Below are positions 5,614 through 38,314 of a stretch of DNA of 64,000 nucleotides, in pieces. The notes beneath the pieces are model-generated. The model was not told the origin of the DNA and did not search any database. It saw only the letters and a list, made by a program, of their open reading frames with translations. The stretch comes from Planctomycetota bacterium (GTDB lineage Bacteria > Planctomycetota > UBA1135 > GCA-002686595), in NCBI GenBank assembly GCA_947484275.1, contig CANKOY010000001.1, positions 1-64,000 of the forward strand, read 5' to 3'. The first letter of the stretch is position 1, and each line of letters begins with the position of its first letter. The translations under genes were made by a program, and so were the position numbers.

Positions 5614-5699
5614 GCTGCGGAAGGGTGGACTCTCCCCCACTTTAGATGGGGCGAAAGAGGATACGCGCAATCCGCCCAGGATCAAGTCCGCGGTGGCAC

Positions 5700-14559: not shown

Positions 14560-16032
14560 ATGAGACTCGGCCTGCATCAATCCGCGCGCATGGAACAGCG
14601 GATGGTTCAGTCGCCGCAGATGATTCAGGCGATGCAGATCCTGCAGCTTTCGAGCCAGGATCTTGCGGATCGAGTCGAGCAGGAGCTGAGCGAGAATCCC
14701 TTCCTGGAGATGATCGAACCTGGCCAGGACGCCGCAGGCGAGGTCGGGTCCTCGGATGGCGGCGTGCAACCCGCGGGGACCACCGCAGCTCCGGAAGCGG
14801 GCAGCGGGCTCGACATCGCACCCGATGGACCCGGCGAGGACTTCGAACGCTACGAGCGCGAATGGGATCCGGTGCGTCGCACGCGCGACAACGGCGATGG
14901 CGACCGCAAGCTCGAGGCCATGGCAAACACGCCCGACGCGCCCAAGAGCGTCGCCGAGGCGGTGCTGGATCAATTGGCGTTCCTCGACCTCGATGCACGG
15001 GGGCGTGCTCAAGCGGAGTACTTGGTCTATTCCCTCGATTCGCGCGGCTACCTCGAAGAAACCCTGGAGGAGATCGCCCAGGAATGCCAGGCCATGCCCG
15101 AGACCGCCGGGACCACGGTCGAGGAGTTGGCACGGGTGCTGCAGGATTTGCGCAGCGTGATTCACCCGGCCCTCGGCGCCCAGGACCTGCGCGAGTGCCT
15201 GCTGCTGCAATTGGAATCCAGCGGCGCGGAGACTCCGCTGCTACGGGCTCTGATTGAAAATCACCTCGAGGACATCACGACCAATCGCCTGCCGCGCATC
15301 GCCAAGGCCACCGGTCGCACGCTTGAGGAGGTCAAGTCCGCGATCGAGTCCTTGCGCGCCCTCGACCCGGCCCCAGGCGGCGAGTACGGCGAAAACACCG
15401 CGGCCGTGATCACTCCGGACGTGGCAGTCGACGAGCAGGACGGAGAATTTCAGGTGTCCCTGACGCGCCAGCGCTCCACGGAATTGCGCTTGTCGCCCAC
15501 CTACAAGCAGTTGCTGCGCGACAACAAGAAGGACCGCGCCCTGGCGGAATTCGTAAAGAAGCGCGTTGAGAATGCGCGCTGGTTCATCGAAGCCGTCTTG
15601 CAGCGCCAATCCACCCTGGAACGCATCGCCGTCTGCCTGTTCCAGCGCCAGCGCGAATTCCTGGAGCGGGGCGTGCGCGGGCTCAAGCCCCTGCGCATGC
15701 AGGAAGTCGCCGATGAAGTCGGCGTGCACATTTCCACGGTCAGCCGCGCCGTTTCCGGCAAGTACGCACAGACGCCGCGCGGGATCTTTCCGCTGAAGTA
15801 TTTCTTCACTGGCGGCACAACGAAGGAATCCGGCGAGGTGGCGAGCCAGGCGGCGATCAAGAACCGCATCGCAGAACTCGTGCGCCAGGAGGACGGCGCG
15901 AATCCGCTCTCCGACGATCAACTGGCTGAATTGCTGGGGAAGAGGGACCGCATCCGCATCGCACGGCGCACGGTGACGAAGTACCGCAAGGCGCTTTCGA
16001 TTCCCTCCTCTTCGCAGCGGCGCGTCTTCTAG
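14560..16032 (+). CDS. rpoN: RNA polymerase sigma-54 factor
   Basis: 490 residues with the full sigma-54 layout. Region I (1-50) is Gln/Leu-rich with QSPQMIQAMQILQLS and ENPFLE. An acidic linker follows, then the core-binding domain (about 130-300). Next come the helix-turn-helix (about 385-410) and the RpoN box ARRTVTKYRKAL (about 465-476; common form ARRTVAKYRE). It recruits RNA polymerase to -24/-12 promoters and needs AAA+ activators, two of which are encoded here (6463-7827 and 24063-25490). The 5' leader holds a perfect palindrome. Confidence 0.97.
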   Translation: MRLGLHQSARMEQRMVQSPQMIQAMQILQLSSQDLADRVEQELSENPFLEMIEPGQDAAGEVGSSDGGVQPAGTTAAPEAGSGLDIAPDGPGEDFERYEREWDPVRRTRDNGDGDRKLEAMANTPDAPKSVAEAVLDQLAFLDLDARGRAQAEYLVYSLDSRGYLEETLEEIAQECQAMPETAGTTVEELARVLQDLRSVIHPALGAQDLRECLLLQLESSGAETPLLRALIENHLEDITTNRLPRIAKATGRTLEEVKSAIESLRALDPAPGGEYGENTAAVITPDVAVDEQDGEFQVSLTRQRSTELRLSPTYKQLLRDNKKDRALAEFVKKRVENARWFIEAVLQRQSTLERIAVCLFQRQREFLERGVRGLKPLRMQEVADEVGVHISTVSRAVSGKYAQTPRGIFPLKYFFTGGTTKESGEVASQAAIKNRIAELVRQEDGANPLSDDQLAELLGKRDRIRIARRTVTKYRKALSIPSSSQRRVF

Positions 16033-18852: not shown

Positions 18853-19472
18853 GTCAAGGGCCCCAAGGGCAGCTTCGCCCGGCTGTTTTCTTCGATCGCG
18901 ACGGCACACTGGTGCGCGAAGTCGAGGGCGCCCTCAGTCAGCTTTCGCAGTTGGAAGTCTTGCCCGGCGCCGCTCTGGCGGTGGGTCGCGTCAATCGCGC
19001 GGGATTCGCGGCCTGCGTAATCACCAACCAGAGTGCCATCGCGCGCGGTTGGATGGACGCCTTCGAACTCGAACGCATCCACGGCGCCCTCGCAGAGCGC
19101 CTGGTCGCCCAGGGCGCTCAACTGGATCTGATTCTGCACTGCCCGCATCTGGACTCCACGGGACTGCCGCCGCACTGGCGTCCGTGCCCGTGCCGCAAGC
19201 CGCAGCCGGGCCTTCTGCTCCATGCGGCCGAGCTGCTGAAATTGAATCTTGAGCGCTCGTGGGTGATCGGAGACGCACTGCGGGACGTGGCTTCGGCCCG
19301 CGCCGCTGGGGCGCGCGGCATCCTGGTTCGCACGGGCAAGGGGCGCCGTGAAGAACTGGGCATCGCAGCTCTGCCCGACGCCGAGCGACCCTTCGCGGTC
19401 GTGGACACTGTGCTGGCCGCGGTCGAACTGCTCATGTCGCAGCCCGCGCCCGTAGCAACTCAGGGCAAGTAG
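18849..19472 (+). CDS. gmhB: D-glycero-manno-heptose 1,7-bisphosphate 7-phosphatase-like HAD enzyme
   Basis: 207 residues, HAD superfamily. FFDRDGTLV holds the nucleophile and general-acid aspartates; VITNQSAIARG is motif II; KPQPG and IGDALRDV complete motifs III and IV. CPH followed by a 13-residue spacer and CPC fits the zinc loop of the GmhB/HisB-N group, with a longer spacer than usual. GmhB removes the 7-phosphate in ADP-heptose synthesis for LPS or glycans. No other heptose gene is in the window, so a histidinol-phosphatase-like role is possible. The GTG start overlaps the PEGA lipoprotein stop. The 3' end overlaps the FemAB-like gene by 13 bases. Confidence 0.82.
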   Translation: MSQGPQGQLRPAVFFDRDGTLVREVEGALSQLSQLEVLPGAALAVGRVNRAGFAACVITNQSAIARGWMDAFELERIHGALAERLVAQGAQLDLILHCPHLDSTGLPPHWRPCPCRKPQPGLLLHAAELLKLNLERSWVIGDALRDVASARAAGARGILVRTGKGRREELGIAALPDAERPFAVVDTVLAAVELLMSQPAPVATQGK

Positions 19473-20557
19473 CGCGCGAGCGGCTTCGAGAGCCCGTTGG
19501 CCAGCCACGCCGGCAATCGGCTCCAAGTCTTGCGCAGGCGCTCCGTCTTGGGGTTGGAGGGCGTGAAGTTCGGTAGAGAGCGATCGCGCAGGAGCGCCAC
19601 CTGGTAGGGCAACTCCTTGGGCTCGAAACCCTGGTGCTCTTTGAAACTGTAGGCCCCCGAATCGCGCCGACTGCGCCCAAAGTCGAAGCGCGTGAGCCCG
19701 CGCTCCACGCACCACTCCTGCAGGGCAAAGTACATGAAGTTCGAGGCAGAGTACTTGCGATCGACCTCGTCCGCGGTGCCCGCGTAATAGGCGTGCAGCG
19801 TCTCCTTGTGAACGAACGACATCACCGCCGCCAGGGGCTCGCGGCCCAGATGCACCATATGCACGACGACGTCAGCACGGAATTCGTCGCTAAGGGCCTG
19901 GAACCACTCCAGCGGCAGACCGGGTGAGCCCAGGTTGCGCTTGTTGTTCGAGAACAGACGCTGCAGATCGCGCGTGTACCACAGTCCTTCGCTCAGGCGC
20001 AGTCCGTGCCTGTCGCGCGCCTTGCGACATTCGGCGCGGGCCTTCTTGGGGATCGAGAGCAACACGTCGTCGACGGTGGAGGGCAGATCGCGAACAAAGG
20101 TCGAGTACAGCGACACGGGTGCGAGGTCGAGCCCCGAAGGTTCGCGGTAACGCAACTCCAGGCGTCCAGCGCGCTCGCGCCCACCCTCGGCACGCGCCAC
20201 CTCAACCAAGGCAGCTTCGATCTCTTGCGTCTGCCCCAATGCGCCGCCGTAGACCGCATAGGGCATCGAAATCAAATGCCGTTTCATCGACAGGGATCGC
20301 GTGCGCATAAGCGGCAGCACACCAGCGATTTCGTTGCCGCGCCACGCGATCCAATCCGACGGTTCGTGCCCAAACGAGCGCTCGACGGCCCTGCGCCAAC
20401 CGCTCAAATGAAAAAACGTCCCCCGTGCGTGGGAGTTCACGAAGCGGTCGCGGGCGGCATCGTCCTCGGGTCGCCCCGGACGAATGTCGATCGGCAAAAA
20501 GGTCTCCGGCGCAGGGGGCGCAGCCGGCGACTCCGCGACGATTCCGACGGCGCTCAT
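19460..20557 (-). CDS. FemAB-like protein of the XrtA/PEP-CTERM-associated type
   Basis: 365 residues with two GNAT-like halves. The C-terminal half carries FDFGRSRRDSGAYSFK and GFEPKELPYQ, typical of the FemAB-type proteins found with exosortase-A EPS loci. FemAB proteins transfer amino acids from aminoacyl-tRNA to peptidoglycan precursors; the substrate of this subgroup is not established. It is cytoplasmic, without signal peptide. The ATG at 20557 overlaps the upstream GT2 stop (ATGA), showing coupling in a GT2-GT2-FemAB operon. The 3' end overlaps the convergent gmhB-like gene by 13 bases. Confidence 0.87.
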   Translation of the reverse strand: MSAVGIVAESPAAPPAPETFLPIDIRPGRPEDDAARDRFVNSHARGTFFHLSGWRRAVERSFGHEPSDWIAWRGNEIAGVLPLMRTRSLSMKRHLISMPYAVYGGALGQTQEIEAALVEVARAEGGRERAGRLELRYREPSGLDLAPVSLYSTFVRDLPSTVDDVLLSIPKKARAECRKARDRHGLRLSEGLWYTRDLQRLFSNNKRNLGSPGLPLEWFQALSDEFRADVVVHMVHLGREPLAAVMSFVHKETLHAYYAGTADEVDRKYSASNFMYFALQEWCVERGLTRFDFGRSRRDSGAYSFKEHQGFEPKELPYQVALLRDRSLPNFTPSNPKTERLRKTWSRLPAWLANGLSKPLARYLP

Positions 20558-21624
20558 TCGTAGACGCGCTCCACGCGGTATTCGCGCAGGTGCCGCGCCT
20601 GGCTGTAGATGATGATCTCCCCCACCAAACCAAATCCGATGATCTGCACGCCAAGCACCAAGAGCATGATCGCGATCAGGAACACGGGTCGGCCGTAGAG
20701 TCCGGCGTCCTCCTGGGTCAGCTTCTGATAGATGACCACGGCGAGCATCGCCGCACCGAGGAACGAGCACAGGGCGCCGACGGAACCGAAGAAACGCAGG
20801 GGCTTCAGCGTGAACTTCGTCAGGAACATGACGCCCAGGACGTCCAGAAAGCGGCGCACGTAGACGCCCAAACCGAAGAAACCGCTGTGGCCCCACTCCT
20901 TGAGGTGTCGCACCGGAACCTCAAGGACGCGGAACCCCTGACGGTGCGCGATCACGGGCAGGAAGCGGTACATGTCGCCGTAGATCGCCACTTCGCTCAG
21001 AACCTCGCGACGGATCGCGCGGAAGTAGCAATTGAGGTCGTGAAACTCCATGCGGATGATCTGGCGGATCACCCAGTTGAAACACGCGGACTGCACGCGG
21101 TTGAGCAGCGGGTCAACGCGCGGCCGACGCCAGGGAGTGACGAAATCCGCGCCCGCGTCCAGGGCCGCGAGCATCACCGGCAGTTCCAGCGGATCGATCT
21201 GTACGTACTGGGGTGAGGTCACGATCACCCGGCCCTTGCTGATCTCAAATCCAGCGGAGAGGCACACCGATTCGCCGAAGGGACTCTCGAAGGTAATCAG
21301 GCGCACTTGCTCGCCGCGTTTCTCGGCCAGGGCCTGGGCGTCGGTGTAGGCCTTGCCCCGCACGCCGTCGAAAACCAGGATGAATTCGAAGCTGCGCCCA
21401 TCGCGCGTGAGTTCGCGCGAGAGCCCTGCGACGACATCGACTACTTCCGCAAGGGGCGAAGTTACCGGCACGATCACGGTCACATCCAAGGTAGCGAATT
21501 GGCGCGGTCCGAGATGTTCTCCGGCCGCCGACACGGCCAAAGGAGCGAGGGCCGCCCGCGTGGCCAGCTCGTGCTGGGCGGGCGTTCGTTCGTGTACTGT
21601 GGTTTGTGCGCGGGGTTCTGTCAC
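20554..21624 (-). CDS. Family 2 glycosyltransferase with C-terminal membrane segments
   Basis: 356 residues. A 45-residue N-terminal extension precedes a GT-A domain (about 47-250): VTVIVPV, FILVFDG, then YVQIDPLE where a DxD would be expected, so the acidic motif is weak (QID). Two transmembrane segments (about 280-305 and 318-342) end the protein. The DPM1/GtrB-like shape suggests sugar transfer to polyprenyl phosphate, but the poor DxD makes activity uncertain. GTG start, 4 bases after the stop of the upstream GT2 gene; the stop overlaps the FemAB start. Confidence 0.82.
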   Translation of the reverse strand: MTEPRAQTTVHERTPAQHELATRAALAPLAVSAAGEHLGPRQFATLDVTVIVPVTSPLAEVVDVVAGLSRELTRDGRSFEFILVFDGVRGKAYTDAQALAEKRGEQVRLITFESPFGESVCLSAGFEISKGRVIVTSPQYVQIDPLELPVMLAALDAGADFVTPWRRPRVDPLLNRVQSACFNWVIRQIIRMEFHDLNCYFRAIRREVLSEVAIYGDMYRFLPVIAHRQGFRVLEVPVRHLKEWGHSGFFGLGVYVRRFLDVLGVMFLTKFTLKPLRFFGSVGALCSFLGAAMLAVVIYQKLTQEDAGLYGRPVFLIAIMLLVLGVQIIGFGLVGEIIIYSQARHLREYRVERVYE

Positions 21625-21628: not shown

Positions 21629-22588
21629 TCACTGGGAACGGATCAGCAGGCGATCGAAGACGCGCCGGCGGTGCATGCCGCTGGCGGTGACCGCCAGTTC
21701 GGACAACAGCCCAAGCAAAACGAAATAGGCCACCAAGACCAACAGCATGAGAAAAGTGAACAACGAGAATGCGAACCAGGTCTCGACCAGTTCGAAACTG
21801 TTGTAATTCACGGTGCTCATGAACAAGAGCGCCAGCGCGCAAGCAGTAAAGAAAAGCGACATCAGGCCAAAGTAGTGCAGCGGCCGGTGGCTGAAGCGCG
21901 CGATCAACAGGATCGAGAGCAAGTCGAGCAGCACGCCCGACGCACGCCCGATGCCATATTTGGACTGGCCGCTGACGCGCGGGCGGTGATTGACGACGAG
22001 TTCGCGCACGCTCGCGCCGCTGCCCATGGCCAGGGCCGGCAAAAATCGATGTTGCTCGGAGTAGATCTCCAGGCGCGCGACCAAGTCCTTGCGGAAGGCC
22101 TTGAGCGTGCAGCCTGTGTCGTGAATCTGCACGCCGGTCACGAAGGAAATCAGCCGGTTGGCGATGCGCGAGGGAATCCGGCGCAGCCACAGACCGTCGT
22201 GGCGATGTTTGCGCCAGCCCGCGACCACGTCACAGCCGCGGTCGATTTCCGCCAGCATGGCCGGGATGTCGGCCGGGTCGTTCTGCAAATCGCCGTCGAG
22301 CGTGACGATGACTTTGCCGCGCGCCTGTTCGAAGCCGGCCGCCAGGGCCGCGGTCTGGCCGAAGTTGCGCCGAAAGCGCACCACGCGCACGCGCGGGTCC
22401 TCGGCGCGCAATTCCAGCAACAGCTCGAGGCTGCCGTCCGTGGAGCGGTCGTCGACGTAGATCACTTCGCTCGTGCGCCCCACGCGAGCCAGGGCCTGGG
22501 TGATCTCTGCGTGCAAGGCCCGCAGGCTTCCGGCCTCGTTGAACACCGGCACAACGATCGAGAGTTCCACTTTCGCTGCGTGATTCAT
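21629..22588 (-). CDS. Family 2 polyprenyl-phosphate glycosyltransferase (DPM1/ArnC/GtrB-like)
   Basis: 319 residues. The GT-A domain (1-215) has VELSIVVPVFNE at the N-terminus, YVDDRSTDGS, and VTLDGDLQNDP with the DxD motif. Two transmembrane segments (about 235-260 and 270-298) follow. Such proteins load a hexose or similar sugar onto undecaprenyl phosphate at the inner face of the membrane. The product could feed the GT39-like enzyme at 16741. The start at 22588 is the first ATG giving the standard GT2 N-terminus. It is the first gene of the minus-strand GT2-GT2-FemAB operon and diverges from the kinase-like gene at 22753. Confidence 0.9.
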   Translation of the reverse strand: MNHAAKVELSIVVPVFNEAGSLRALHAEITQALARVGRTSEVIYVDDRSTDGSLELLLELRAEDPRVRVVRFRRNFGQTAALAAGFEQARGKVIVTLDGDLQNDPADIPAMLAEIDRGCDVVAGWRKHRHDGLWLRRIPSRIANRLISFVTGVQIHDTGCTLKAFRKDLVARLEIYSEQHRFLPALAMGSGASVRELVVNHRPRVSGQSKYGIGRASGVLLDLLSILLIARFSHRPLHYFGLMSLFFTACALALLFMSTVNYNSFELVETWFAFSLFTFLMLLVLVAYFVLLGLLSELAVTASGMHRRRVFDRLLIRSQ

Positions 22589-22752: not shown

Positions 22753-23907
22753 TTGGAAAACACCCAGAGCGAAAGCCGTCTGCCGGGAATACGAATTGGC
22801 CCCGGCAGCGGCCTCGACAAGCTCGCTGCACTGCTCGAAGCCCTCGGCCGCGACATGCCGGAGAGCCCCGGAATTACGCGTTGGTCCGACGTCGCGGAGA
22901 TGCTTCTGTCTGGCCCCAGGGACCGGGTGGTACTCGATGCTGACCATTTTCCGCAGGAGGACATCGGCATCGTACGCCGATTCCTTGTGGCCCGGCCTGG
23001 AGCATCGATCGAGGCTCTTGGGGCGAATCGCGCGGCCCCGGTGAGCCGCAGCCTGCTTGCCATGGAGGGTGTGCACTGGCATCCCTGGCCACAGGACCTG
23101 GTCCAACTGGAGAGCCTGCTGCGGCCAGTTCGGGTCACACAAACTGCTGGGGCCGCGGGGAGAGATGCCGCGGAGCGGTCGTCGCTGGGAACCCCGCGAG
23201 AGGAACCGAAGGTGGCCGACCTGCGCTCGCCCCTGGTCGAATTGCTCGCCCAGGTTAGACGGGCCGGCGATGCCCTGGAGTCGGCTCGCGCCAGCGGAGA
23301 AATGAGCCCTGCGCAAAGCCTGCACCTAGGCGCCGAATTGACGCGCCTGGAGCGCGGAGCCCGGGGCCTATTGTTGGAAAGCGAACGTCCGCTTGCGCCA
23401 GCGGAAGCCATGGACTTGGACTGCCTCGTGGAGGAAGAACTTGCGGTACTTGCGCTCCAAAGCCGCCGCGCGCCGCGCGTGCGCTACCACGGCGGTGAAG
23501 CTCTGCCGGTGCGCGCGGATCGATCTCTGCTCGTCCACGCACTGGGGATGCTCCTTGACCTCGCGCGCGGATTGGCTCCCCAGGGTGAGGCCCTGGAAGT
23601 TCGCACGCTCGCGGCACCCATCGACCAGGATCAGCCAGGCTTCGCGCGGGCGATCGTCCGCGTACGGGCTCCGGCAGGCGTCCTCTCGGATCTATCCCCG
23701 GCTCAGTTGCTCATGCCAGCCGGACTGGGTGAACGCGTCCCGGGGGTCGGCCCCAGCGAGCTGTGCGCCCTAGCCCGGCTATGTGCCCAGCGCGGCCTGC
23801 TCCTGGAAGTTCACCGGGTGGTCGGTGCCCAGGCACTGCTTGAATTTGACGTCTCCGCACCCCTTGCGGAGCGCCACGCGGCCAAGCTCGCCGTTTCCCC
23901 CGGATAG
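22753..23907 (+). CDS. Degenerate histidine-kinase-like protein
   Basis: 384 residues. Residues about 45-130 follow a receiver-like pattern (VVLDADHFPQED, later HPWPQDLVQLESLL). Residues about 150-210 are helical but hold no clear H-box. Residues about 220-375 track a HATPase_c fold: VRADRSLLVHALGMLLDLA in place of the N-box, then GVGPSELCALARL and a terminal LLEFDVSAPL. The N-box asparagines and the DxGxG ATP-lid motif are missing, so kinase activity is unlikely. TTG start with weak context. It is 155 bases upstream of the sigma-54 activator and is read here as a PrsK-like pseudokinase, by position. Confidence 0.65.
   Translation: MENTQSESRLPGIRIGPGSGLDKLAALLEALGRDMPESPGITRWSDVAEMLLSGPRDRVVLDADHFPQEDIGIVRRFLVARPGASIEALGANRAAPVSRSLLAMEGVHWHPWPQDLVQLESLLRPVRVTQTAGAAGRDAAERSSLGTPREEPKVADLRSPLVELLAQVRRAGDALESARASGEMSPAQSLHLGAELTRLERGARGLLLESERPLAPAEAMDLDCLVEEELAVLALQSRRAPRVRYHGGEALPVRADRSLLVHALGMLLDLARGLAPQGEALEVRTLAAPIDQDQPGFARAIVRVRAPAGVLSDLSPAQLLMPAGLGERVPGVGPSELCALARLCAQRGLLLEVHRVVGAQALLEFDVSAPLAERHAAKLAVSPG

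Positions 23908-24062: not shown

Positions 24063-24063
<1 letters not shown>
24036..24063 (+). promoter_or_regulatory. Hairpin over the ribosome binding region of the sigma-54 activator gene
   Basis: TGGAAG (24036-24041) pairs with CTTCCA (24058-24063). Inside, CCCC (24042-24045) pairs with GGGG (24053-24056) with a bulged A. The G-run 24052-24056, the only Shine-Dalgarno-like sequence, is in the stem, and the A of the start codon closes it. Melting would be needed for initiation. This is read by eye without a folding calculation. Confidence 0.45.
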
Positions 24064-25490
<1,427 letters not shown>

Positions 25491-25610: not shown

Positions 25611-28600
25611 GTGAAGCTAACTGCCTGGATCCTATTGACTGCGGCCCTGGTGGTACTCGGGGCGATCGGGGGGCTGATGCTCTCCGGCGCACAGGCTGAG
25701 CCGCGTGACTTGCTTGAATCAGCTCTACGGCGCTTCAATGGTCCGGAGCAGGACGCCGAGGCCACCCTCGGGGAACTGGACATGGCACTGCGCGCGGCGG
25801 AATCCAGCGCCGACGACGAACTCGCCGCCGACATTCTGATCGCCCGCGGTCGCGTGCTGCGCGACGTTGAGGCCTACGGCCCTGCGCGCGCCGATTTCGA
25901 GCGTGCCCTGGCGCGCTATCGCCCGGGTGCCTTGGAACTCGAACTCGAACTCGTCTCCCTGGAGGAGGAGACTGGCGAACTAGATGCCGCACTAGAACGC
26001 GCAATGCGGATCACGGAGCGCGATCCGACGCGCCTCGAAGGCTGGACCCACGCTGGTCAGATCCTGACGCGCATGTCCGAGCAGCGCTTCGCGGAGCTCG
26101 AGGCGGTGTGCGACGCCAATCTTTCCGATGCCTTCGCGGCGCGAGCAGTGGCCTACGCGCGCAGAGCCGCTGGCATGGACGCCGACGATCCGCTGCGCGT
26201 CTCTCAACTGGCGGGATTGCGCTCGCTGTACTCGCCGCCGGATCAGGCGGATTCCCTGCGTAGCCTTGCGCTCGCCGACCAGGCCAGCTCCGCAAGTTCA
26301 AGCGCGCGCGATGCCCTCGTGCGATCTTTCGCCGGTGAGTTGGATCGCGACGCGGTGCGCTCGTACCTGGAGTTGCTCTGGCGCTCAGGGCGCACACAGG
26401 ACGCCGTGGATTTCGGGCTGGCCGTCGTTTCTCAGCGATCGGTCAATTCATCGCCACTATTCATGGAGCGGCTGGCCCGCGTTCTGATCGATGCGGGGCG
26501 CCCTCGGGCCGCCTGCGAGGCGATTCAGCAGCACTTCAACCGCAACGTCCAGGCCGGACAGTCCTTCTACTTGACGTGGTGTGAAGCCCTGCACAAGTCA
26601 GAGCGCTGGAAGGACCTGGCCTTTGCCGCCTCGCTGCTGCGATCCGCTGGCGACGAGGCACACAGGTCCATCGCCGTGTTCTACCTCGGGGTGTCGCGCG
26701 CAAACTCGAACCAGACCGAGGCCGCTGAGGACGCATTCGATTTCTACACCCGGAACGGCCCGGTCGAACCTTTTCCCGGGGCCCTCGGTCTCGCCTGGCG
26801 CTCGCTGGCTGCTTCGTTGCGCACCATGGAGCAGCCGGCGAATGAGAACGGCGCCCTGCTCGAGGCCGTGCGTCTTGCGCCGCAGGCGGACGGCGAAGCA
26901 TGGTTGCGCCTGTTCCACCTGCTGCAGGAAAGCGAACCGGAGAGCCTGAGCCAGGCTGAGTTGTACCTCACCAACGCCCTCTGCCTGCTGCCGCAACGCA
27001 CCAACGAGCTGATGCCGACCTGGCTCGACGTGGGCCGCCGCCGCATGCGTGCTTCGAGCATGGAGCTAGAGTTGTTGATGGCCGACCAGCGCAAGGCCGG
27101 CCGCATCGGACTTTCACCGAGCGCGGGACCCTACGAGTTGTTCCGCTTCGCCGAGATGCACCGCGACGCAAAGGAACCGACGGCTGCTGCAGCCGGCGCG
27201 CGACGCATGCTGCTGAACTACCCCGGCTTCATTCCAGCCATGGATCTCCTCGGAGATGCCCTGCGCGAAATGGGCGATTTCTCCGGCGCCGCACAGATGT
27301 GGATCGATCGCCTCAAGCTCGCGCCGGGAGACGAAGCCACGTTGCGCAAGTTGGCCCGCTCGCCACCGGAGTCATTGAGCTCGGCGCAGTTGATCGAATT
27401 GATGCAGATCGACCCGGAGAACACTGGCCGGCTCGAGGTCGCGCGAACCCTCAAGGCCGACAAGCGCCCCCATGATGCCTTGGCCGGACTCAATGCACTG
27501 CCATTGCAGTCACTGGGGGACGCGGGTGTGATGCTTGCGAGCGAGCTCTTGATTGAGGTCGGAAAGGCCCAGGAGGCCCTCGCGATGCTCGCGCGCCTGA
27601 CGCCCCAGCGCCAGCGGAGTGCGCGCGCCTTCGAACTCTCGCTCGATGCCGCGCGGCTCTCGGGCAAGGACGAACTGCTGCTGTCGATCATTGCCAAGCC
27701 ACCGGAAGTCTCGAGCCTGGACGCGGCAACGATCATGCAACGCGTAGACACGATGCTCGCCTATGGACAGGTCGCTCCGGCACGCGCGCTGCTCGACTTC
27801 CTGGACGCCCAGGCGGAAACGCGCACGCGCGATGTGATGCTCCGTCGTGCGGCGGTTGCGCTGTTGAACCGCGACCCGGTCGGCGCGCAGGACGAACTCG
27901 ATCGCGCCCAGGTCTTCGACGACGGCAGCGCGGTCGCTTTCGGGCGTTTGCTCGCTGTGCTGGAGTCCCGCATCTACAATCGCTTGCCGATCTTCGTGCG
28001 CGCGCTGTACAGCACGTCTTTCCGGCCCACGCGCTTGCAGTCTGCGATCCTGGCGATCCTAGACGAGCGCGTCGACGAAGCCCGCTACCTGATTAGCGAG
28101 GGGCGCCGACTCGAACCGCGCGAACCCAACTGGTCCTTGCTCGAGGCTTCGCTCGAGGTGCTCGCCGGCCGCAATCCCGATCTGTCGGCACTGGTGGATT
28201 CGACCGGCGCGGATGAGACGCTGTTCTTGCTGCGCGCCGGCGACAACCAACGCAATCCGCGCACTATGTACGCGCGCCTTCTGGCGCTGGAGAGTCCGGA
28301 CTGGCGCCTGTGGGCCGTGGCCGATTTCGCCCACCTCAAGCCCACAGTGCCCGGTTCCATGTGGGCCAGCTACCTCTCAGGGCGCGGCCAGGCGTCTGCG
28401 GGGATGGCCCAGGATGCGGAGCGCACCTGGCGCACCGTGTTGCGCTCCTGGCCCACGTTTGTGCCGGCGTGGGACGCCCTAGAAAAGGCGCGGCTGGAGC
28501 GCCTCCGTCGATTCGATCACGTCGATATGGTGCGCCTGCGCGCCGATCGACGCTTGGCCCTCGGCGCGCGGCCAGGTGAAGCGGCCGAGGAATTGCTGAC

Positions 28601-29834
28601 GGAGGCCTGGGCGCGCGAAATTGCCGGCAACCTGACCGGTGCGCTGGAGAGCGTGCGCGCGTCCGTCGAGTTGGATCAAGAACTTGCTCCCGCCTGGTTC
28701 AAGCTCGGCCAGCTCTGCCATCGATTGGCCGAATGGGATAGCGCGATCGCCGCCATGCGCCGAGCTGCGCGTTCGGCGGAAGTGGAGACCGCGTCGCCAA
28801 TCGTCGAAGAATTCGTGTCCGTGTTGCGCGACGCACGCGCGGCTCTCCCCGAGCGCATTTCAGCTGAATCGGTGCGCGCAGACCTTGCGGAATTGGCGCT
28901 GCGCTTTCCGAACGATCCCGGCGTGGTCCTGGCCCAGGCGCGCGCGGAGTTGGATCAGGAGGACATCGCGCCGGCGGTGCGCGTCGCGCGCGCCTACGAC
29001 CGACTCGACAGGTTTCTCGCGCGCCTCGATGAAGCCGCGATCGCAACTGCAGCACAGCTGAAGGCAGAGCGAGCCGCAGCCCTGGCGAAGCCCGTTGCGC
29101 GCGGGAAGGCGGGCCGCAACCCCACGCCGCGGGCCGTGATGGACATGCTGATCCCAAGTCGCGCGACGACGCTGCGGCCCGCCAAGGGCCAGCGTCAGTC
29201 CCTGGATCAACTGCGCCCGGGATCCACAGGTGCCTGGAAGGACTTCTATCAGAGTCTTGAGCCGGCGCGGGCCGAGGCATTCGTTCGCAGCGAACTTCTT
29301 CGCAGTCCGGGTAGCCTCGAACTGTGGCGAATGCTCTGCGAGGCACTGGTGGCCCAGGGCCGACGAGCGGAGGCCACGCGGCTGTTCGAGTTGATGGCGC
29401 GCATGGTGCCCGCCGGGAAGACCCACCGAGCCCTTGCGGACCTCTACGCGGGTACAGGTGCAGTGCCGGCGAAAGTGCAGGCCAGCATCGCGGCGGCCGT
29501 GCTCGTGGAAGGGCGCACGGCACCTGACGTCGACTTGCTCTTCTTACTTGCTCGAGAGTTGACCAGCACACCACAGGGCATGACGCAGGGTCTGCAGGTG
29601 CTCGAAGGATTGTGGCAGCAGCGCGACGCCGCCATCGGCCGAATCAAGGACCTCGATATCGGCCAGCTCTATGGCACGGCACTGGTTCAGCGCGCCGATC
29701 CTGCGGACCGACAACTCGCGTCGAGCCTCCTAAATGAGGTCTCCGCCGCGATCACCAACGATCGCGCGCGCAAGAACCTCGTTGATGCTTTGGCGCTGCT
29801 AGCCGCGCAAATTCCTGCGCGCGCTACGCGCTGA
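25611..29834 (+). CDS. Very long secreted/membrane-anchored TPR protein (PrsT-like by position)
   Basis: 1,407 residues. An N-terminal hydrophobic segment (5-28) ends in AQA and can serve as signal peptide or anchor. The rest is a helical solenoid of degenerate TPR-like pairs with Ala/Leu/Glu/Arg-rich helices. A Lys/Arg/Pro-rich insert (about 1150-1200) interrupts it before more TPRs. No enzyme motif is present. In exosortase-A EPS loci a TPR protein, PrsT, follows PrsK and PrsR and is needed for EPS-dependent flocs; the order here is the same, but the length is greater and homology is not shown. The GTG start at 25611 directly precedes the signal-like segment. It is convergent with the EPS operon, 21 bases apart. 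Confidence 0.85.
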   Translation: MKLTAWILLTAALVVLGAIGGLMLSGAQAEPRDLLESALRRFNGPEQDAEATLGELDMALRAAESSADDELAADILIARGRVLRDVEAYGPARADFERALARYRPGALELELELVSLEEETGELDAALERAMRITERDPTRLEGWTHAGQILTRMSEQRFAELEAVCDANLSDAFAARAVAYARRAAGMDADDPLRVSQLAGLRSLYSPPDQADSLRSLALADQASSASSSARDALVRSFAGELDRDAVRSYLELLWRSGRTQDAVDFGLAVVSQRSVNSSPLFMERLARVLIDAGRPRAACEAIQQHFNRNVQAGQSFYLTWCEALHKSERWKDLAFAASLLRSAGDEAHRSIAVFYLGVSRANSNQTEAAEDAFDFYTRNGPVEPFPGALGLAWRSLAASLRTMEQPANENGALLEAVRLAPQADGEAWLRLFHLLQESEPESLSQAELYLTNALCLLPQRTNELMPTWLDVGRRRMRASSMELELLMADQRKAGRIGLSPSAGPYELFRFAEMHRDAKEPTAAAAGARRMLLNYPGFIPAMDLLGDALREMGDFSGAAQMWIDRLKLAPGDEATLRKLARSPPESLSSAQLIELMQIDPENTGRLEVARTLKADKRPHDALAGLNALPLQSLGDAGVMLASELLIEVGKAQEALAMLARLTPQRQRSARAFELSLDAARLSGKDELLLSIIAKPPEVSSLDAATIMQRVDTMLAYGQVAPARALLDFLDAQAETRTRDVMLRRAAVALLNRDPVGAQDELDRAQVFDDGSAVAFGRLLAVLESRIYNRLPIFVRALYSTSFRPTRLQSAILAILDERVDEARYLISEGRRLEPREPNWSLLEASLEVLAGRNPDLSALVDSTGADETLFLLRAGDNQRNPRTMYARLLALESPDWRLWAVADFAHLKPTVPGSMWASYLSGRGQASAGMAQDAERTWRTVLRSWPTFVPAWDALEKARLERLRRFDHVDMVRLRADRRLALGARPGEAAEELLTEAWAREIAGNLTGALESVRASVELDQELAPAWFKLGQLCHRLAEWDSAIAAMRRAARSAEVETASPIVEEFVSVLRDARAALPERISAESVRADLAELALRFPNDPGVVLAQARAELDQEDIAPAVRVARAYDRLDRFLARLDEAAIATAAQLKAERAAALAKPVARGKAGRNPTPRAVMDMLIPSRATTLRPAKGQRQSLDQLRPGSTGAWKDFYQSLEPARAEAFVRSELLRSPGSLELWRMLCEALVAQGRRAEATRLFELMARMVPAGKTHRALADLYAGTGAVPAKVQASIAAAVLVEGRTAPDVDLLFLLARELTSTPQGMTQGLQVLEGLWQQRDAAIGRIKDLDIGQLYGTALVQRADPADRQLASSLLNEVSAAITNDRARKNLVDALALLAAQIPARATR

Positions 29835-29855: not shown

Positions 29856-30710
29856 TCAACTGAGAGCGCCCTCGGCCTCGAGCACCGCGCGCAAGGAACC
29901 GAAGCGGTGCTCCGCGAGCAGCGCGTCGAGGCGCGGGAGGGTGCGCCCCAGGTTCAGGTAGTGTCGCCAGCGCTGCAATGCCGGGGCCGGACAGCGCGGT
30001 TGGTCAGGATCGAATTCCCAGGGATGCAAGTAGAGCGACGCGGGCCGACCGCGGCGCTGCAGCGAACGAACCGCGGCGCGCGTCACTGCCCCGGGCAAGA
30101 GGCGGAAGTAGCCGCCGCCCCCCACCGGCAGATTGACACCGGCCAGTGGATAGGTGGAAACGGGAAACTCGATCACGTCAGCCACAGCGGTCTTCACACG
30201 CGAGATGCCCGGCTCGAAGTCGGGCACGCCGTACACGGGATGGCGCACGGGATGGACACTGGAGTCGTAGAGATAGCCGCGCTCTGCTAGCACATCGAAG
30301 GCCCACCAGGTCTTGCGCGTCAGCGTGAACGTCGAGGCCCGAAATCCGATCGGACGCGGTGCGCCAGCGTCCATCAGGGCGCGCTCGGTGCGCGCGAGAT
30401 CCTCGATGAAGTGCGCGCGGTCCATGTCCCATAGGAACAGATGTTCGTAGCCGTGACTCGCTACCTCGTGGCCCGCGTCGAGCACGCGCCGAACGTACTC
30501 AGGATGTCGCTCCGCGATCCAGCCCAGGAAAAAAAACGTCGCGTGGGCGTCGTGGCGCGCGAGCGAGTCGAGAATTCTGTCCATTCCGATCGCGAGGCGC
30601 GTCGGAACCTCGTCCCAGTCCTCGCGCGAAAAGTGCCCGCGCAGGTTGGCAACCTGGAAGTACTCCTCCACATCAAAAGAGATTGCGTGCAGACGAGCGG
30701 AGTTCACCAT
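29856..30710 (-). CDS. Polysaccharide deacetylase (XrtA-system type, NodB-like with DUF3473-like tail)
   Basis: 284 residues. SFDVEEYF near the N-terminus holds the catalytic Asp. HGYEH gives the metal histidines, and GFRAST is the next motif. The C-terminal third (YLHPWEFD) matches the tail seen in deacetylases of exosortase-A EPS loci. It should remove N- or O-acetyl groups from the polymer or its precursor. No signal peptide is visible. The ATG at 30710 overlaps the stop of the upstream GT4 gene by seven bases. It is the last gene of the EPS operon. Confidence 0.9.
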   Translation of the reverse strand: MVNSARLHAISFDVEEYFQVANLRGHFSREDWDEVPTRLAIGMDRILDSLARHDAHATFFFLGWIAERHPEYVRRVLDAGHEVASHGYEHLFLWDMDRAHFIEDLARTERALMDAGAPRPIGFRASTFTLTRKTWWAFDVLAERGYLYDSSVHPVRHPVYGVPDFEPGISRVKTAVADVIEFPVSTYPLAGVNLPVGGGGYFRLLPGAVTRAAVRSLQRRGRPASLYLHPWEFDPDQPRCPAPALQRWRHYLNLGRTLPRLDALLAEHRFGSLRAVLEAEGALS

Positions 30711-31894
30711 GGGGCCTCTCCAGTGTCGCGCATGCGAGCGATTTCGCGAGCGACGCGCTCTGCGTTTCCGCGCCAAGTGAGCCCGCGCTCCTCGATCGTA
30801 CGCCGCGCGGCCTCTCCCAGGTTAGCGCGCAACTTGGGATCACTGGCCAGCGCCATCAGCGCCGCCTCGAGGGCCGCGCCGTCGTCCGCAGTGACCAGCC
30901 AGGCGTTCTCCCCGTGGGTCAGCACCTCGCGCAGATTGGGCTGGTCCGGAGCCAAGGTGGCCAGGCCGGCAGCCATGTATTCGTGCAGCTTCAATGGCGA
31001 AGCGTAGGGGTTGATCGCCGGAACCAGGGCAAGGTCGAATGCCGGCAAAAGCGCAGGGATCGCCACATGCTCGCGCCGTCCGCAAAAGCGCACGCGGGCC
31101 GTCACGCCGCGCTCGCGCGCTCGCGCTTCCAATGCTTCGCGCGCAGGCCCCTCCCCCACCAGAGCCAGCACTGCACCTGGGAGTTTGGGCAGAGCGTCGA
31201 TCACCAGGTCCAATCGGTGCCAATCGCGGTAATAGCCCACGAAGCCAAGCACCAAGGCGCCTTCCGGAAGCTCCAGATCTCTGCGCGCGATCGCGCGCAC
31301 TGCAGCGCGGTCTTCATACTCGAATTGCTCGAGGTGCACGCCGTTGGGTGTGATCAGGATTCGCCGACGATCGACGCCGAGGTCCACGAGCATATCGGCG
31401 AGGACCTCTGTCACGGCACACACACGCGTGGCCTCGCGCAGGATGTAGCGCTCCATGCGATCCGCGGTGCGCGCGAACGTCAACCCGCGCGTGCGCGATA
31501 GCTCATGAACCATCGGCGAGTTCACTTCGAGCACCAGCGGCACGCCCGTGCGTCGCGCGGCCATCACACCCGCGGCGTTGCCAAAGGCGTAGCGCTCGTA
31601 AACGAAATCCGGTTCTGCCTGTCGGATCGCGCGTGCCAGGCGCGGCCGGGCGAAGGCGGTGTATGAGTACTCAGCCAATTCGCGCGCGAACCGGGGCAGC
31701 CGCCCAACCGCGCTCCAGCGCGAGGGCGCCGGCAAATTCGCTCCCGAGTAGCTAGGCTCCGACGGCCGCGAGCGCGACACCAGACTGAATTCGACGACCT
31801 CATGTCCCAGTTCGCGCCATGCGTCCTGCAGCGCACGGATGTGCACGGCCTGTCCGTCCTCGGCCTGGGTGCGATGGTGGTAGAGAATCTTCAA
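30704..31894 (-). CDS. Family 4 glycosyltransferase (XrtA-locus type)
   Basis: 396 residues, GT-B fold. The N-terminus reads KILYHHRTQAEDGQAVHI, much like PEP-CTERM/XrtA-system GT4 proteins. NSPMVHE, TPNGVH and the C-terminal donor site PLKLHEYMAAG are present. It adds a sugar to the lipid-linked repeat unit at the cytoplasmic membrane face. The TTG at 31894 was chosen because it gives the standard N-terminus and overlaps the upstream GT4 stop as TTGA. Donor and acceptor are unknown. Confidence 0.9.
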   Translation of the reverse strand: MKILYHHRTQAEDGQAVHIRALQDAWRELGHEVVEFSLVSRSRPSEPSYSGANLPAPSRWSAVGRLPRFARELAEYSYTAFARPRLARAIRQAEPDFVYERYAFGNAAGVMAARRTGVPLVLEVNSPMVHELSRTRGLTFARTADRMERYILREATRVCAVTEVLADMLVDLGVDRRRILITPNGVHLEQFEYEDRAAVRAIARRDLELPEGALVLGFVGYYRDWHRLDLVIDALPKLPGAVLALVGEGPAREALEARARERGVTARVRFCGRREHVAIPALLPAFDLALVPAINPYASPLKLHEYMAAGLATLAPDQPNLREVLTHGENAWLVTADDGAALEAALMALASDPKLRANLGEAARRTIEERGLTWRGNAERVAREIARMRDTGEAPW

Positions 31895-33072
31895 TCGGCG
31901 CGCTCCAGAGCGCGGGCACGCGCGAGGCAGCCCTCCAGGGCGTCTAGGCTCTGCTCCCATGACAAGCCCTCGACCTGGGCGCGACAGCGCTGCGACGTGG
32001 GCGGGTTTCGCAGCAAGGACACCAGCGCGCGGCCGATCACCTCGGGATCGCGCGAGTCCACGAGGCACTGCGGAAGCCCGACGAGCAACTCGGCGGTACC
32101 ACCCGCATCCGTGGCGAGCACGGGCCGTCCGCAGGCGAGAGCCTCGAGCACGACATTGGGGCGACCTTCGCGCGAACTGGTCAGCAGCAACACGTCGCTG
32201 GCGTTGTACCAATCGCAAAGGGACGCGGAAGGTACCTCGCCGCGAAGAGTGAATCGATCGCCGAGATTCAGTTCGCGCGCGCGCTGATCCAGCGCGGGGC
32301 GCAGGGCTCCAGCACCGACGAATGCAATGCGCGCGTTCGCTAGTGCCGCCCGGGCGAAGGCATCCAACGCCAGGAGCGGATCCTTGCGCCCGATGAGGTG
32401 CCCGACCACGAGGACCAAGGTCCCTTCGGACGCCAAACCCAGTCGCTGGCGCGCAAAGCTGCGATCGCGCATTTCGAACTGATCGAGATCCACGCCGTTG
32501 GGTACGAGCACACCGCGCGCAGGCCCGCCCGCGAGGCGATCCATGGCGTCGACGAGATCCTGGGAAACCGCGCACCAGTTGCCAGCGTCCCTCAAGCACT
32601 GCCCCAAGGCCTGGGCCAACTTAGGTGTTTCGGCCACCTGCAACACATCGCTGCCGCGGCCGTTGATCAGGGTGGGCAAGCACGCTGCGCGCAATTGCGC
32701 AGCCGCGCGCGCGGCTGGCCAGGCATAGTCGCACACGACCACATCGCAGGTCGCTGCGCCCAACAGGCGTGAGCAGCCGGCGCGTGCAAACCCATCGGCA
32801 TTGGCCAAGGCTCGCCCGGGGACGTGTAGGTAGCGCGGACGCTCGATCGGAATGCCGTCGCGAAACTCTTGTCGCGGCATGCGCGCGATCTCGCTCCAGT
32901 GCGGCCTTCCCAGCAGCGAGCCCAGGGGCCCAACGGGCGCCCGTGGAAGCGGCTGGACCACGAACACGTCGTGTCCGCGCTTGACCATGCCCGCCCAGCG
33001 GCGTTCGGCAAAAATTCCCTCCTGAGGCCGCACGGTAGAAGGAAACAGCGATGTTAGAACCCCAATCCTCAC
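31891..33072 (-). CDS. Family 4 glycosyltransferase
   Basis: 393 residues, GT-B fold. RIGVLTSLFPS opens the acceptor domain. NGRGSDV, VPNGVDL and the donor-side SSREGRPNVVLEALACG with ATDAGG are typical GT4 features. It probably builds the EPS repeat unit. The GTG at 33072 overlaps the amidotransferase stop (GTGA), and its own stop overlaps the next GT4 start, so three consecutive genes are coupled. Confidence 0.91.
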   Translation of the reverse strand: MRIGVLTSLFPSTVRPQEGIFAERRWAGMVKRGHDVFVVQPLPRAPVGPLGSLLGRPHWSEIARMPRQEFRDGIPIERPRYLHVPGRALANADGFARAGCSRLLGAATCDVVVCDYAWPAARAAAQLRAACLPTLINGRGSDVLQVAETPKLAQALGQCLRDAGNWCAVSQDLVDAMDRLAGGPARGVLVPNGVDLDQFEMRDRSFARQRLGLASEGTLVLVVGHLIGRKDPLLALDAFARAALANARIAFVGAGALRPALDQRARELNLGDRFTLRGEVPSASLCDWYNASDVLLLTSSREGRPNVVLEALACGRPVLATDAGGTAELLVGLPQCLVDSRDPEVIGRALVSLLRNPPTSQRCRAQVEGLSWEQSLDALEGCLARARALERAD

Positions 33073-34970
33073 GCTGAGACTCCGCGAACGCCATGGGCGC
33101 GCCGCCAGTGCTCCAGCACCAGGAGACTCCACAGGAGGCGCGAGTGGTCGCGGGCACCGGAGAGGTGCTCGGCGTGGCGTGCCGCGAGCACGCCGGGTGC
33201 AAACCACTGGGCGGGCAACGCGCTCAGAGCGTCGCGACAGGACTCTGCCAGGGGGCCGCGCAACCAGGCGGCCAAGGGGATGTCGAACCCGCGCTTGGCG
33301 CCATCGAGGATCGAAGCGGGCAGCCGCGGGCGCAGCGCTTCGCGGAACGCGTGTTTCCCGCGCCGCGCGCGGATCTTCTCCCGCGCGGGCAGCGTGGCGA
33401 AGCGTTCGACAAAACGGTGGTCGAGCAGCGGCGGTCGTACCTCCAACGATACTGCCATGGCGGCGCGGTCGACCTTGGTCAGGATCTGATCGGGCAAGTA
33501 GGTGTGGATGTCAGCGTACTGTGCCCGGTACAGCGGATCGTCCACACGCGGGCGCTCGTAGTGCGCGGCGAAGGCCTCGTATGGATCGCAGTCCGCGAGC
33601 GAGCGCGCCAATTCCGGCGCGAGGAGCTCCATAACTTCGCCGCGAGAGAGCTGCGAGACACTGTGGTAGTACGCGCGACCGGGTTCGCGTCCGAGGTTGG
33701 AGAGAAAGGTCTTCGCGCGCAACGGACGCGGCGCGAAATCCAACTTCGGATAGACCCGTCCCAACCAGCGCGCACCCACGCGACCTGGCGCGCCGAGGCT
33801 TTGGCGCATGCGGTTTTCCGCTGAATCGTGCACGTAGCGGCGGTATCCGGCGAAAACCTCGTCACCGCCGTCGCCAGAGATCGCAACGGTCACGTGCTCG
33901 CGCGCCATCTTGGACACGAGGAAGGTCGGTACCGTCGATGGATCGGCCAGGGGCTCGTCGAACACCCAGGGCAGAGTGTCCACGACTAGGAGCGGGTCGG
34001 GCTCGAGCACGCGAGCGTGGTGCTCTGCGCCAAAGCGTTTGGCGCTCTCTCGCGCGATCTCCAGTTCGTCGTGGCTCTTCTCGCGAAATCCCACGGAACA
34101 TGCGATCAGGGGCCTACCCCCTGCGCGCGACATGCTCTCCACCACCGCGGTCGAGTCGATTCCGCCGGAGAGGAACGCGCCGAGGGGCACTTCGCTCTCG
34201 AGGTGCTCACCGACCACGCGATCGACCCACTCACGGATTTCCTGACCGCGATCCACTTCGCTGGCGGGTTCGCGCATTCGATCCAACGGAAGATCCCAGT
34301 AGCGTTCGATTCTCGGCGTGCCGCCGGGTTCGAAGGCGAGCGTGTGACCTGCGGGCAAACGCTCGATGCCGGCCCAGGCGGAGTGCGCGCCGCCAACGTA
34401 ACCCTGCATCAAGTACTCGAGCAGCGCCTCGCGCCGCAGCACGCGAGGTGTGTCCCCCATGGCAAGAATTGCCTTGGGTTCGCTGGCCCAGGCCAGTCCG
34501 CGGGAGGTCCTGGCCCAGTACAGCGGCTTGATGCCCAGTCGATCGCGCCCCAGCAAGACCCGTGGCCGCGCGGGGTCGCGATAGTCGAGCAGCGCAAAAG
34601 CAAACATGCCCACCAGGCGCTCGACGAGTTTCGCGCCAACCTCCTCGTACAGATGTACGGCTACTTCGACGTCGGAGTTCGTCCGGAAGCGGTGCCCGCG
34701 CGAAATCAGCTCCGCGCGCAGCGCGTGATGATTGTAGATCTCACCATTGAGCACCATCGCGATGTCGCGGGTCTCGTTCTCGATCGGCTGGTGGCCGCCG
34801 GCAACGTCGATGATCGACAGCCGCCTAAAGGCGATTGCCATGGGCCCTTGGACATGGACTCCCTCATCGTCCGGACCGCGCAGGCGCAAGCTGCGCGCTG
34901 CATCCAGCATGAACTGGCGCTCCGGTGAGCTGGCCGGATCGTCAAGGGCAATACCGCAGAGTCCGCACAC
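33069..34970 (-). CDS. Asparagine synthetase-like amidotransferase (XrtA-system type)
   Basis: 633 residues. An N-terminal class II glutaminase domain (Cys2 after Met removal; RGPDDEG, NGEIYNH) is joined to an ATP-dependent synthetase domain with SGGIDSTAV and SGDGGDEVFAGY. It moves ammonia from glutamine to a carboxylate. In EPS loci of the exosortase-A type such enzymes are thought to amidate uronic acids in the polymer; free asparagine synthesis is an alternative. The GTG start encodes the invariant MCG. UDP-uronate-related genes occur in the same cluster (42038-42976, 44856-45815), which fits uronamide formation. Confidence 0.92.
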   Translation of the reverse strand: MCGLCGIALDDPASSPERQFMLDAARSLRLRGPDDEGVHVQGPMAIAFRRLSIIDVAGGHQPIENETRDIAMVLNGEIYNHHALRAELISRGHRFRTNSDVEVAVHLYEEVGAKLVERLVGMFAFALLDYRDPARPRVLLGRDRLGIKPLYWARTSRGLAWASEPKAILAMGDTPRVLRREALLEYLMQGYVGGAHSAWAGIERLPAGHTLAFEPGGTPRIERYWDLPLDRMREPASEVDRGQEIREWVDRVVGEHLESEVPLGAFLSGGIDSTAVVESMSRAGGRPLIACSVGFREKSHDELEIARESAKRFGAEHHARVLEPDPLLVVDTLPWVFDEPLADPSTVPTFLVSKMAREHVTVAISGDGGDEVFAGYRRYVHDSAENRMRQSLGAPGRVGARWLGRVYPKLDFAPRPLRAKTFLSNLGREPGRAYYHSVSQLSRGEVMELLAPELARSLADCDPYEAFAAHYERPRVDDPLYRAQYADIHTYLPDQILTKVDRAAMAVSLEVRPPLLDHRFVERFATLPAREKIRARRGKHAFREALRPRLPASILDGAKRGFDIPLAAWLRGPLAESCRDALSALPAQWFAPGVLAARHAEHLSGARDHSRLLWSLLVLEHWRRAHGVRGVSA

Positions 34971-34997
34971 GGGTCTGATGACTCCAGTGGCGGCGCC

Positions 34998-36371: not shown

Positions 36372-36396
36372 TCGCTAGCCCCTCGCTTGGGGACGA

Positions 36397-36408
36397 ACTC
36401 CTAGGAGT
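36397..36408. promoter_or_regulatory. 12-base perfect palindrome upstream of the O-ligase gene
   Basis: ACTCCTAGGAGT lies 26 bases before the O-ligase ATG and includes the stop codon of the small candidate reading frame 36401-36610. A second short hairpin (CCCC/GGGG, 36379-36392) follows. It could be an operator or an mRNA stem controlling the 3' part of the operon. Confidence 0.35.
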
Positions 36409-36610
36409 CCGTTGACCAAGCCGCCTCCGCGCCGCACTGGCTTACTCCATGGATCACGTTCATAAACGCGCTGGCGCGAGGCATGTCGCGGTATGGCGAT
36501 ACGCCGAGCGCGACGCGACAGCGGCACAGGCGGCCTTGATGGCCTCCGAGCACGATGTTTCGAGCCGCGACGAAGTTTTGCCGAAGCGCGCGAAGCCGAG
36601 CGGGCGACAT
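36401..36610 (-). CDS. Possible small protein between the chain-length and O-ligase genes
   Basis: 69 codons from ATG at 36610 to TAG, filling the gap between two operon genes. AGGAG overlaps the upstream stop and lies 10 bases before the ATG; a TTG two codons earlier is in frame. The product is basic at the N-terminus and holds four cysteines. No family was recognised, and there is no membrane segment. The frame could be chance in GC-rich DNA; the position and Shine-Dalgarno are the only support. Confidence 0.25.
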   Translation of the reverse strand: MSPARLRALRQNFVAARNIVLGGHQGRLCRCRVALGVSPYRDMPRASAFMNVIHGVSQCGAEAAWSTDS

Positions 36611-36623
36611 CTTCAAAGGGCTC

Positions 36624-38291: not shown

Positions 38292-38314
38292 TGTGCTAAC
38301 TCGCTCCCCGTGTC

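Follow-up and report, generated by a model that had tools for sequence, protein, structure and literature searches.

How might a protein with the fold of a histidine kinase, but none of its catalytic residues, act beside the sigma-54 activator of an exopolysaccharide locus? The question is raised by a gene in a 64,000-nucleotide stretch, here called the window, which comprises positions 1 to 64,000 of contig CANKOY010000001.1 (assembly GCA_947484275.1) of a Planctomycetota bacterium (GTDB lineage Bacteria; Planctomycetota; UBA1135; GCA-002686595). The gene is termed PSK, for pseudo-histidine kinase.

Organization of the locus

The genes of the window that concern PSK are the following.

14560..16032, plus strand: RpoN (sigma-54), TIGR02395 above cut-off, about 7 kb from the locus
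19460..20896, minus strand: reading frame of a FemAB-like protein, with a TIGR03019 match from residue 148 (259.1 bits against a cut-off of 260.35)
20554..21624, minus strand: second GT2-like glycosyltransferase
21629..22588, minus strand: GT2 glycosyltransferase, the divergent neighbor of PSK
22753..23907, plus strand: PSK, 384 amino acids, TTG start (open reading frame, AlphaFold2 model, alignment)
24063..25490, plus strand: sigma-54 activator with an AAA+ domain (Walker motifs, GAFTGA), a Fis-type helix-turn-helix and a degenerate receiver (motifs, models)
25611..29834, plus strand: 1407-residue TPR protein, positional counterpart of PrsT, without a match to the PrsT model
29856..30776, minus strand: XrtA-system polysaccharide deacetylase, TIGR03006 above cut-off
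30704..39097, minus strand: XrtA-like exopolysaccharide genes, including an O-ligase (TIGR03097 above cut-off)

The TTG start of PSK agrees with the relative in locus L053, which has an ATG start and begins MENTSE. We chose the activator start at 24063 within a reading frame that opens at 23982, which places the likely start 155 bases from PSK on the same strand. The stretch 30704..39097 also encodes a glycosyltransferase, an amidotransferase and chain-length and export proteins, for which the XrtA models score below cut-off; TIGR03108, 03007, 03027, 03019 and 04063 are all below cut-off in the locus of the window. Although XrtA-system marker genes lie at 29856-39097, a search of the assembly that contains the window found no exosortase (PF09721); at 88% completeness of that assembly this absence is no proof. 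Sigma-54 promoter-like sites are not in excess in the window, with 27 matches at up to two mismatches against 28.7 expected.

Predicted fold of PSK

An initial annotation, made from the DNA alone, had read the product as a pseudokinase in which a receiver-like N-terminus is joined to a HATPase fold, and had proposed comparing a predicted structure with HATPase_c. Structure, sequence profiles and a residue tally over 45 family members bear this reading out. The 45-member alignment consists of the window protein and 44 of the 56 proteins of its relatives, truncated sequences and those with uncertain starts being left out; 58 loci from 57 genomes had been fetched initially. From this alignment AlphaFold2 predicts a receiver-like domain, a DHp-like hairpin (helices at residues 158-181 and 186-210) and a HATPase-like domain, which is the order found in Rec-controlled kinases, with a mean pLDDT of 86 and low values at residues 1-7 and 130-153. 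The parts of PSK, all on the plus strand, map as follows.

22789..23121: receiver-like domain, residues 13-123 (model, Foldseek, residue tally)
23122..23211: low-confidence linker, residues 124-153 (pLDDT below 50 at 130-153)
23212..23382: DHp-like helical hairpin, residues 154-210, without the phospho-acceptor His (model and alignment)
23212..23235: remnant of the H-box, VADLRSPL, residues 154-161 (alignment)
23398..23868: HATPase-like (CA) domain, residues 216-372, without ATP-binding residues (model, residue tally)
23548..23562: former N-box Asn positions, Met266 and Leu270 (alignment)
23668..23682: former G1 box, APAGV, residues 306-310, with the family consensus FPAGP (alignment)

Compared with known structures, the predicted fold matches histidine kinases. 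Over the whole length the best PDB matches are to LvrB (six chains, E 8e-12 to 2.5e-10), followed by many kinases, and in VIA-align histidine kinases reach Z values of up to 17.9, with DivL (4q20, among the nearest) at 17.6 and LvrB at 17.1. The TM-scores against LvrB are 0.32-0.34 and the rmsd is about 24 A, so the placement of the domains is not reproduced. Homology is also found by sequence over the DHp-HATPase part, where ordinary kinases of related genomes match the PSK family profile with E down to 7e-13; among PDB sequences the profile matches the kinase ZraS at 1.3e-8, and also the unrelated vimentin at 3e-4.

Residues 1-131, when modeled separately, reach a pLDDT of 91. The folds nearest to this domain taken singly are the atypical receivers of CpaE/TadZ, then response regulators (best E 1e-4, five PDB chains at E <= 0.001), with sugar isomerases and other proteins lower among the matches. 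CpaE/TadZ are pilus-assembly proteins by their PDB titles, and their receivers, unlike that of PSK, are not joined to a kinase fold. The hhalign comparison of the N-terminus with ten canonical receivers gives a modest signal (P 7e-5, probability 62%) that leaves the first strand uncovered. The window protein matches no Pfam family at E <= 1, and the 45 aligned members yield five single-member Pfam matches (E 0.02-0.25), none of them to a kinase or receiver. NCBIfam gives the 45 members weak matches alone, which include kinases (best 6e-4, one member) and the response regulator EpsF (0.0047, two members).

Loss of kinase and receiver residues

ATP motifs had been reported missing from the window protein, and the tally shows their loss across the 45 aligned family members. 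Both N-box Asn residues are present in 10/10 comparison kinases and 0/45 PSK members, the G1 Asp in 9/10 and 0/45, the first G1 Gly in 8/10 and 0/45 and the second in 8/10 and 2/45; the ten kinases, from related genomes, were chosen since the PSK profile found them and therefore lean towards it. The column of the G1 Asp holds Phe in 42 of the 45 members. Structural columns are kept, namely Asp316 (37/45), Ala331 (38/45) and Pro375 (39/45). The window protein is itself a divergent member that lacks several residues of the family consensus.

The earlier observation that no H-box is present is likewise correct for the window protein, in which the alignment puts Ala155 in the His column (a possible shift by one residue would put Asp156 there) and residues 111-190 contain no His. 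Elsewhere in the family 7/45 members (L032, L035, L036, L038, L045, L050, L059) have a His close to where the first DHp helix begins, and in four (L046, L053, L076, L078) the DHp region is mostly or wholly missing. An active histidine kinase was considered and rejected: PSK has the DHp and HATPase folds, but the H-box His, the N-box Asn residues and the G1 DxGxG are absent.

The receiver-like domain of the window protein has GPG at the place of the acidic pair, Gly90 for Thr/Ser and Trp112 for Lys, and keeps Asp62. Across the 45 members G, P and G occur at the acidic-pair place in 35, 35 and 33, Gly at the Thr/Ser place in 40 and Trp at the Lys place in 34. Asp is retained in the Asp62 column in 33 members and is the sole phosphorylation residue left. 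PSK has the predicted fold of a receiver without the full set of phosphorylation residues.

Distribution and selection

Searched with the single window protein, 58 of the 81 genomes of the host family contain relatives, its own included (weakest E near 1e-3), as do 23 of the 29 genomes of good quality. The PSK profile at E <= 1e-15 finds members in 61 of 154 class genomes, which without exception belong to the 81 of the host family, and in none of the 73 class genomes beyond it; the order-level search set likewise comprised 154 genomes. Remoter relatives outside the host family were reached solely via the locus. With a ten-member alignment, 25 named records were obtained. Planctomycetota or Planctomycetia stands in the titles of 18, "bacterium" or "uncultured bacterium" in those of six, and Deltaproteobacteria in that of one. 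This last relative (L120, isolate SP3084) possibly comes from a misnamed metagenome bin. A scan of named genome contigs with the single PSK protein found no relatives.

PSK is under purifying selection. By the Nei-Gojobori method on pairwise protein alignments, in which certain sequences recur between pairs and dS is above 1.5 in some, whole-gene dN/dS is 0.15-0.42 in 10/10 close pairs; two of these pairs have a sequence in common, and none includes the window copy. Calculated by part for seven pairs, it is 0.05-0.18 in the DHp-HATPase core (last 215 residues), 0.10-0.30 in the receiver and 0.29-0.66 in the linker. In six of the seven pairs constraint is strongest on the core; in the exception, L070/L079, the receiver has 0.10 against 0.12 for the core, at a dS that is too high to be reliable. 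The columns of the former ATP site are the most informative of the HATPase-like domain, with 2.53 bits against 2.23 and 1.80 elsewhere in it.

The adjoining activator

Judged by its motifs, the AAA+ part of the activator looks intact, as Walker A is found in 49 of 58 sequences and exact GAFTGA in 35 of these 49, the window included. The receiver is degenerate: of 48 sequences none has the acidic pair, Asp and Lys together, and singly the acidic pair is kept in 6, Lys in 7 and Asp in 21, the window being among the Asp-keepers. These 48 rows include 12 loci without PSK; they omit the paralogue L032 and nine rows without a match to the Walker A pattern, which are five remnants in genus g10, the full activators L050, L069 and L073, and L076, which is cut. 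Against the PrsR model the activator of the window scores 360 bits, below the cut-off of 502.6.

Gene order was compared in 63 PSK-bearing rows (61 genomes besides that of the window, two genomes being on two contigs each). The divergent glycosyltransferase is present in 60/60 rows with upstream sequence. A full activator lies directly 3' of PSK in 36 of the 52 rows with enough downstream sequence, after 11 rows that end at contig ends were left out and L073, whose activator reading frame overlaps, was assigned by hand as full. In 5/52 rows, all from g10, the activator has shrunk to a helix-turn-helix protein, and in 11/52 it is not adjacent. Among these 11, an activator lies at a distance of 3-7 kb in two (L050, L059) and another contig has a strong match (E 1e-118 or better) in four, and in five (L051, L077, L088, L112, L113) a clearly orthologous activator was not found. 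A helix-turn-helix remnant was not detected in L051, L088 and L112. The best matches to the window activator in the genomes of L051, L088, L112 and L113 (E 2.5e-92 to 2.9e-97) are in the paralogue range, and since the E-values of two in-locus activator copies are themselves no better than 6e-100 and 1e-97, an orthologue call elsewhere in the genome is uncertain.

PSK is in turn missing from 12 loci, where a gap of 98-506 bases between glycosyltransferase and activator leaves it no room; the median gap in PSK-bearing loci is 1,794 bases (35 loci, L050 and L032 left out). On a 75-row FastTree of neighboring genes, which has many weak forks and in which long branches were flagged, the presence of PSK takes six changes, at least five of them on strong branches. 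All six testable rows of g10 keep PSK, with the activator reduced to a helix-turn-helix protein in five and undetected next door in one, and in both rows of genus g2 PSK is followed directly by the TPR gene with no activator between. The g10 remnants (L049, L057, L071, L072, L083) are Fis-type helix-turn-helix reading frames of 160-244 amino acids with a dN/dS of 0.20-0.30 over the last 85 codons (four pairs, sequences shared); rpoN is retained there.

Comparison with known systems

The activator partner of NifL, NifA, is a sigma-54 activator. The available text of PMC3466315 describes NifL as a kinase-like protein that controls a transcription activator via a protein complex and senses via PAS domains with FAD, and titles cited there mention a nucleotide-binding domain. 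PSK differs in having a receiver-like domain and in lacking nucleotide-binding residues, and PAS domains were not found in it with Pfam. DivL of Caulobacter, according to the part of PMC4211667 available, has a kinase fold without kinase activity that is reused for binding; its His is replaced by Tyr, its kinase boxes (H, N, G1, F, G2) are retained and PAS domains are present. PSK does not fit this pattern of a His-to-Tyr change with the other boxes kept. NifL-NifA and DivL show that kinase folds can work by binding, and the best reading is that PSK would work like NifL or DivL while being a member of neither.

LvrB of Leptospira (PDB 8vc9) shares the receiver-DHp-HATPase order. It is presented in the accessible text of PMC13269768 as an active kinase turned on by phosphorylation of its receiver, whereas PSK is without the acidic pair, Thr/Ser and Lys of the receiver, the relay His and the ATP residues. 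By gene order, PSK, the activator and the TPR protein occupy the positions of prsK-prsR-prsT in the PEP-CTERM/XrtA exopolysaccharide locus, for which the available part of PMC1569441 describes exopolysaccharide genes with a kinase, a sigma-54 regulator and a TPR protein nearby. The kinase, PrsK, is a transmembrane protein in that text, which in the same part does not list PrsK, PrsR or PrsT for Rhodopirellula baltica. None of the 81 host-family genomes passes the cut-off of TIGR02916 (PrsK) and one of the 45 PSK members matches at E 0.081, and on this score we rejected PSK as a PrsK orthologue. No description of the PSK family was found among the literature matches listed, as judged by titles and the starts of abstracts; those on pseudokinases include DivL, ChrS and a selenoprotein kinase-like domain.

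Proposed function and alternatives

We propose, with a probability of roughly 55%, that PSK is a phosphorylation-independent binding regulator of the adjoining sigma-54-controlled exopolysaccharide locus, built on the architecture of a Rec-controlled kinase whose phosphotransfer residues have been lost. The dead DHp-HATPase core, with new conserved sequence in the former ATP pocket, would form a binding surface, the receiver-like domain would relay a signal, and binding would raise or lower the output of the activator of the locus or of whatever has replaced it. PSK is probably cytoplasmic; its dimerization, partner, signal and direction of control we infer. The sigma-54 activator appears as the likeliest partner, because it adjoins PSK in most loci and is mostly unable to take phosphate in the usual way. 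As Asp62 is kept in 33/45 PSK proteins and the corresponding Asp in 21/48 activators, some phosphorylation may take place at either receiver, which counts against the proposal. So do the divergence of the window protein from the family consensus, the four outgroup loci without a slot gene, and a number of sigma-54 promoter-like sites in the window no higher than expected by chance.

A stricter form of partnership, in which PSK is an obligate scaffold or co-activator and the adjacent activator works solely in complex with it, seems unlikely to us. The same strand, the 155-base spacing and the full activator directly 3' in 36/52 rows agree with it, but the activator occurs without PSK in 12 loci, the presence of PSK requires at least 5-6 changes on the tree, and six g10 and two g2 rows keep PSK with the activator stripped or undetected in the locus. 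In three g10 pairs, moreover, the PSK core remains strongly selected (0.05-0.11). The suggestion of the initial annotation that PSK may scaffold or bind the activator encoded next is thus possible in a looser form, and adjacency in most loci agrees with it. Because activator and PSK are lost independently, each seems able to do without the other and the claim of a dedicated pair is weaker; a dispensable partnership fits a modulator rather than an essential co-factor.

PSK might instead act on the polysaccharide machinery itself, for example on the divergent glycosyltransferase, and not on transcription. The glycosyltransferase is there in every one of the 60 testable rows, activator-less ones included, but the 12 PSK-less loci share the glycosyltransferase-activator arrangement, so that the adjacency may be no more than long-standing synteny. 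Signaling is, besides, the typical role of proteins with receiver and kinase folds, and we regard a target in the machinery as doubtful. A more specific version of the binding regulator is comparably speculative: a former two-component pair would have become a phosphate-free switch in which PSK, its former ATP pocket binding something else, controls the dead-receiver activator, the contact in g10 being made with the DNA-binding end and not with the receiver or AAA+ part.

Histidine phosphotransferases of the Spo0B/ChpT kind have a kinase fold with the ATP site lost and a relay His. The fold and the ATP-site loss of PSK fit such a role, as does the His noted above for 7/45 members. The relay His is, however, absent from the DHp helix in the window protein, where residues 111-190 are His-free, and Asp takes its place in 8/9 clear copies from outside the host family. 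We rejected this candidate as very improbable. A decaying, functionless kinase relic, to which the missing DHp region in 4/45 members and the repeated loss of the gene would point, is hardly credible given dN/dS of 0.15-0.42 in 10/10 pairs (none with the window copy), the tightest constraint on the core in 6/7 and PSK in 61 of 81 host-family genomes at E <= 1e-15, and was rejected on dN/dS by whole gene and by part.

Outgroup loci and origin

Fifteen loci were fetched from other families of the order, and 14 were testable, L180 lying too near a contig end. A clear receiver plus kinase-like gene occupies the slot of PSK in 9/14, and L170 has a weak match (E 1.4e-4); the slot gene was not found in L166, L167, L168 and L172. 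These E-values were obtained from ten chosen sequences or few loci, with a kinase profile built from the ten PSK-profile-found kinases. With a slot gene in nine of 14 outgroup loci, PSK is probably older than the host family.

The His column of the H-box holds Asp in 8/9 clear outgroup copies, with the rest of the box legible (e.g. DEINNPL), and the H-box of the ninth, L169, is degenerate. A GLGL-type G2 is present in L174, L176 and L178, and partial forms in other copies. The outgroup activator receivers are better preserved than those of the host family: Lys is kept in 10/11 readable cases and Asp in 10/11, and L169 and L173 have the full set of five residues. Locus L169 encodes, at 5336-7519 between PSK and an activator with a canonical receiver, a canonical kinase (AHELNNPL, NLLRNA, DDGPG, GLGL). 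L169 is a possible three-component ancestor. The PSK locus may once have had an active kinase and lost it, a view that rests on this one example. The order seems to retain a series of stages of kinase decay: in family f8 the H-box can still be read, Asp standing for His, and part of G2 remains, and later stages have lost the ATP residues fully (f1), the DHp region (four members) and finally the gene.

Pseudo-histidine kinases are otherwise known as scattered cases such as DivL and NifL. PSK is present in most genomes of the host family with its catalytic residues gone, yet selection is tightest on its core in 6/7 pairs, and the regulator of the locus is degenerate too. The series of stages together with L169 allows one to ask directly how a phosphorelay becomes a binding switch. 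PSK is also a candidate regulator for exopolysaccharide loci of Planctomycetota.

Other sigma-54 and kinase genes

In many host-family genomes rpoN lies within about 10 kb of the PSK locus, and many have a second rpoN elsewhere; five of seven g10 genomes have a single one. Beyond rpoN the window encodes a second sigma-54 activator (6463-7827) with NtrC-like full-length matches, and activators like it occur near rpoN in some other genomes. The 1104-residue protein encoded at 11111-14425 has matches to Ser/Thr kinases and TPR proteins.
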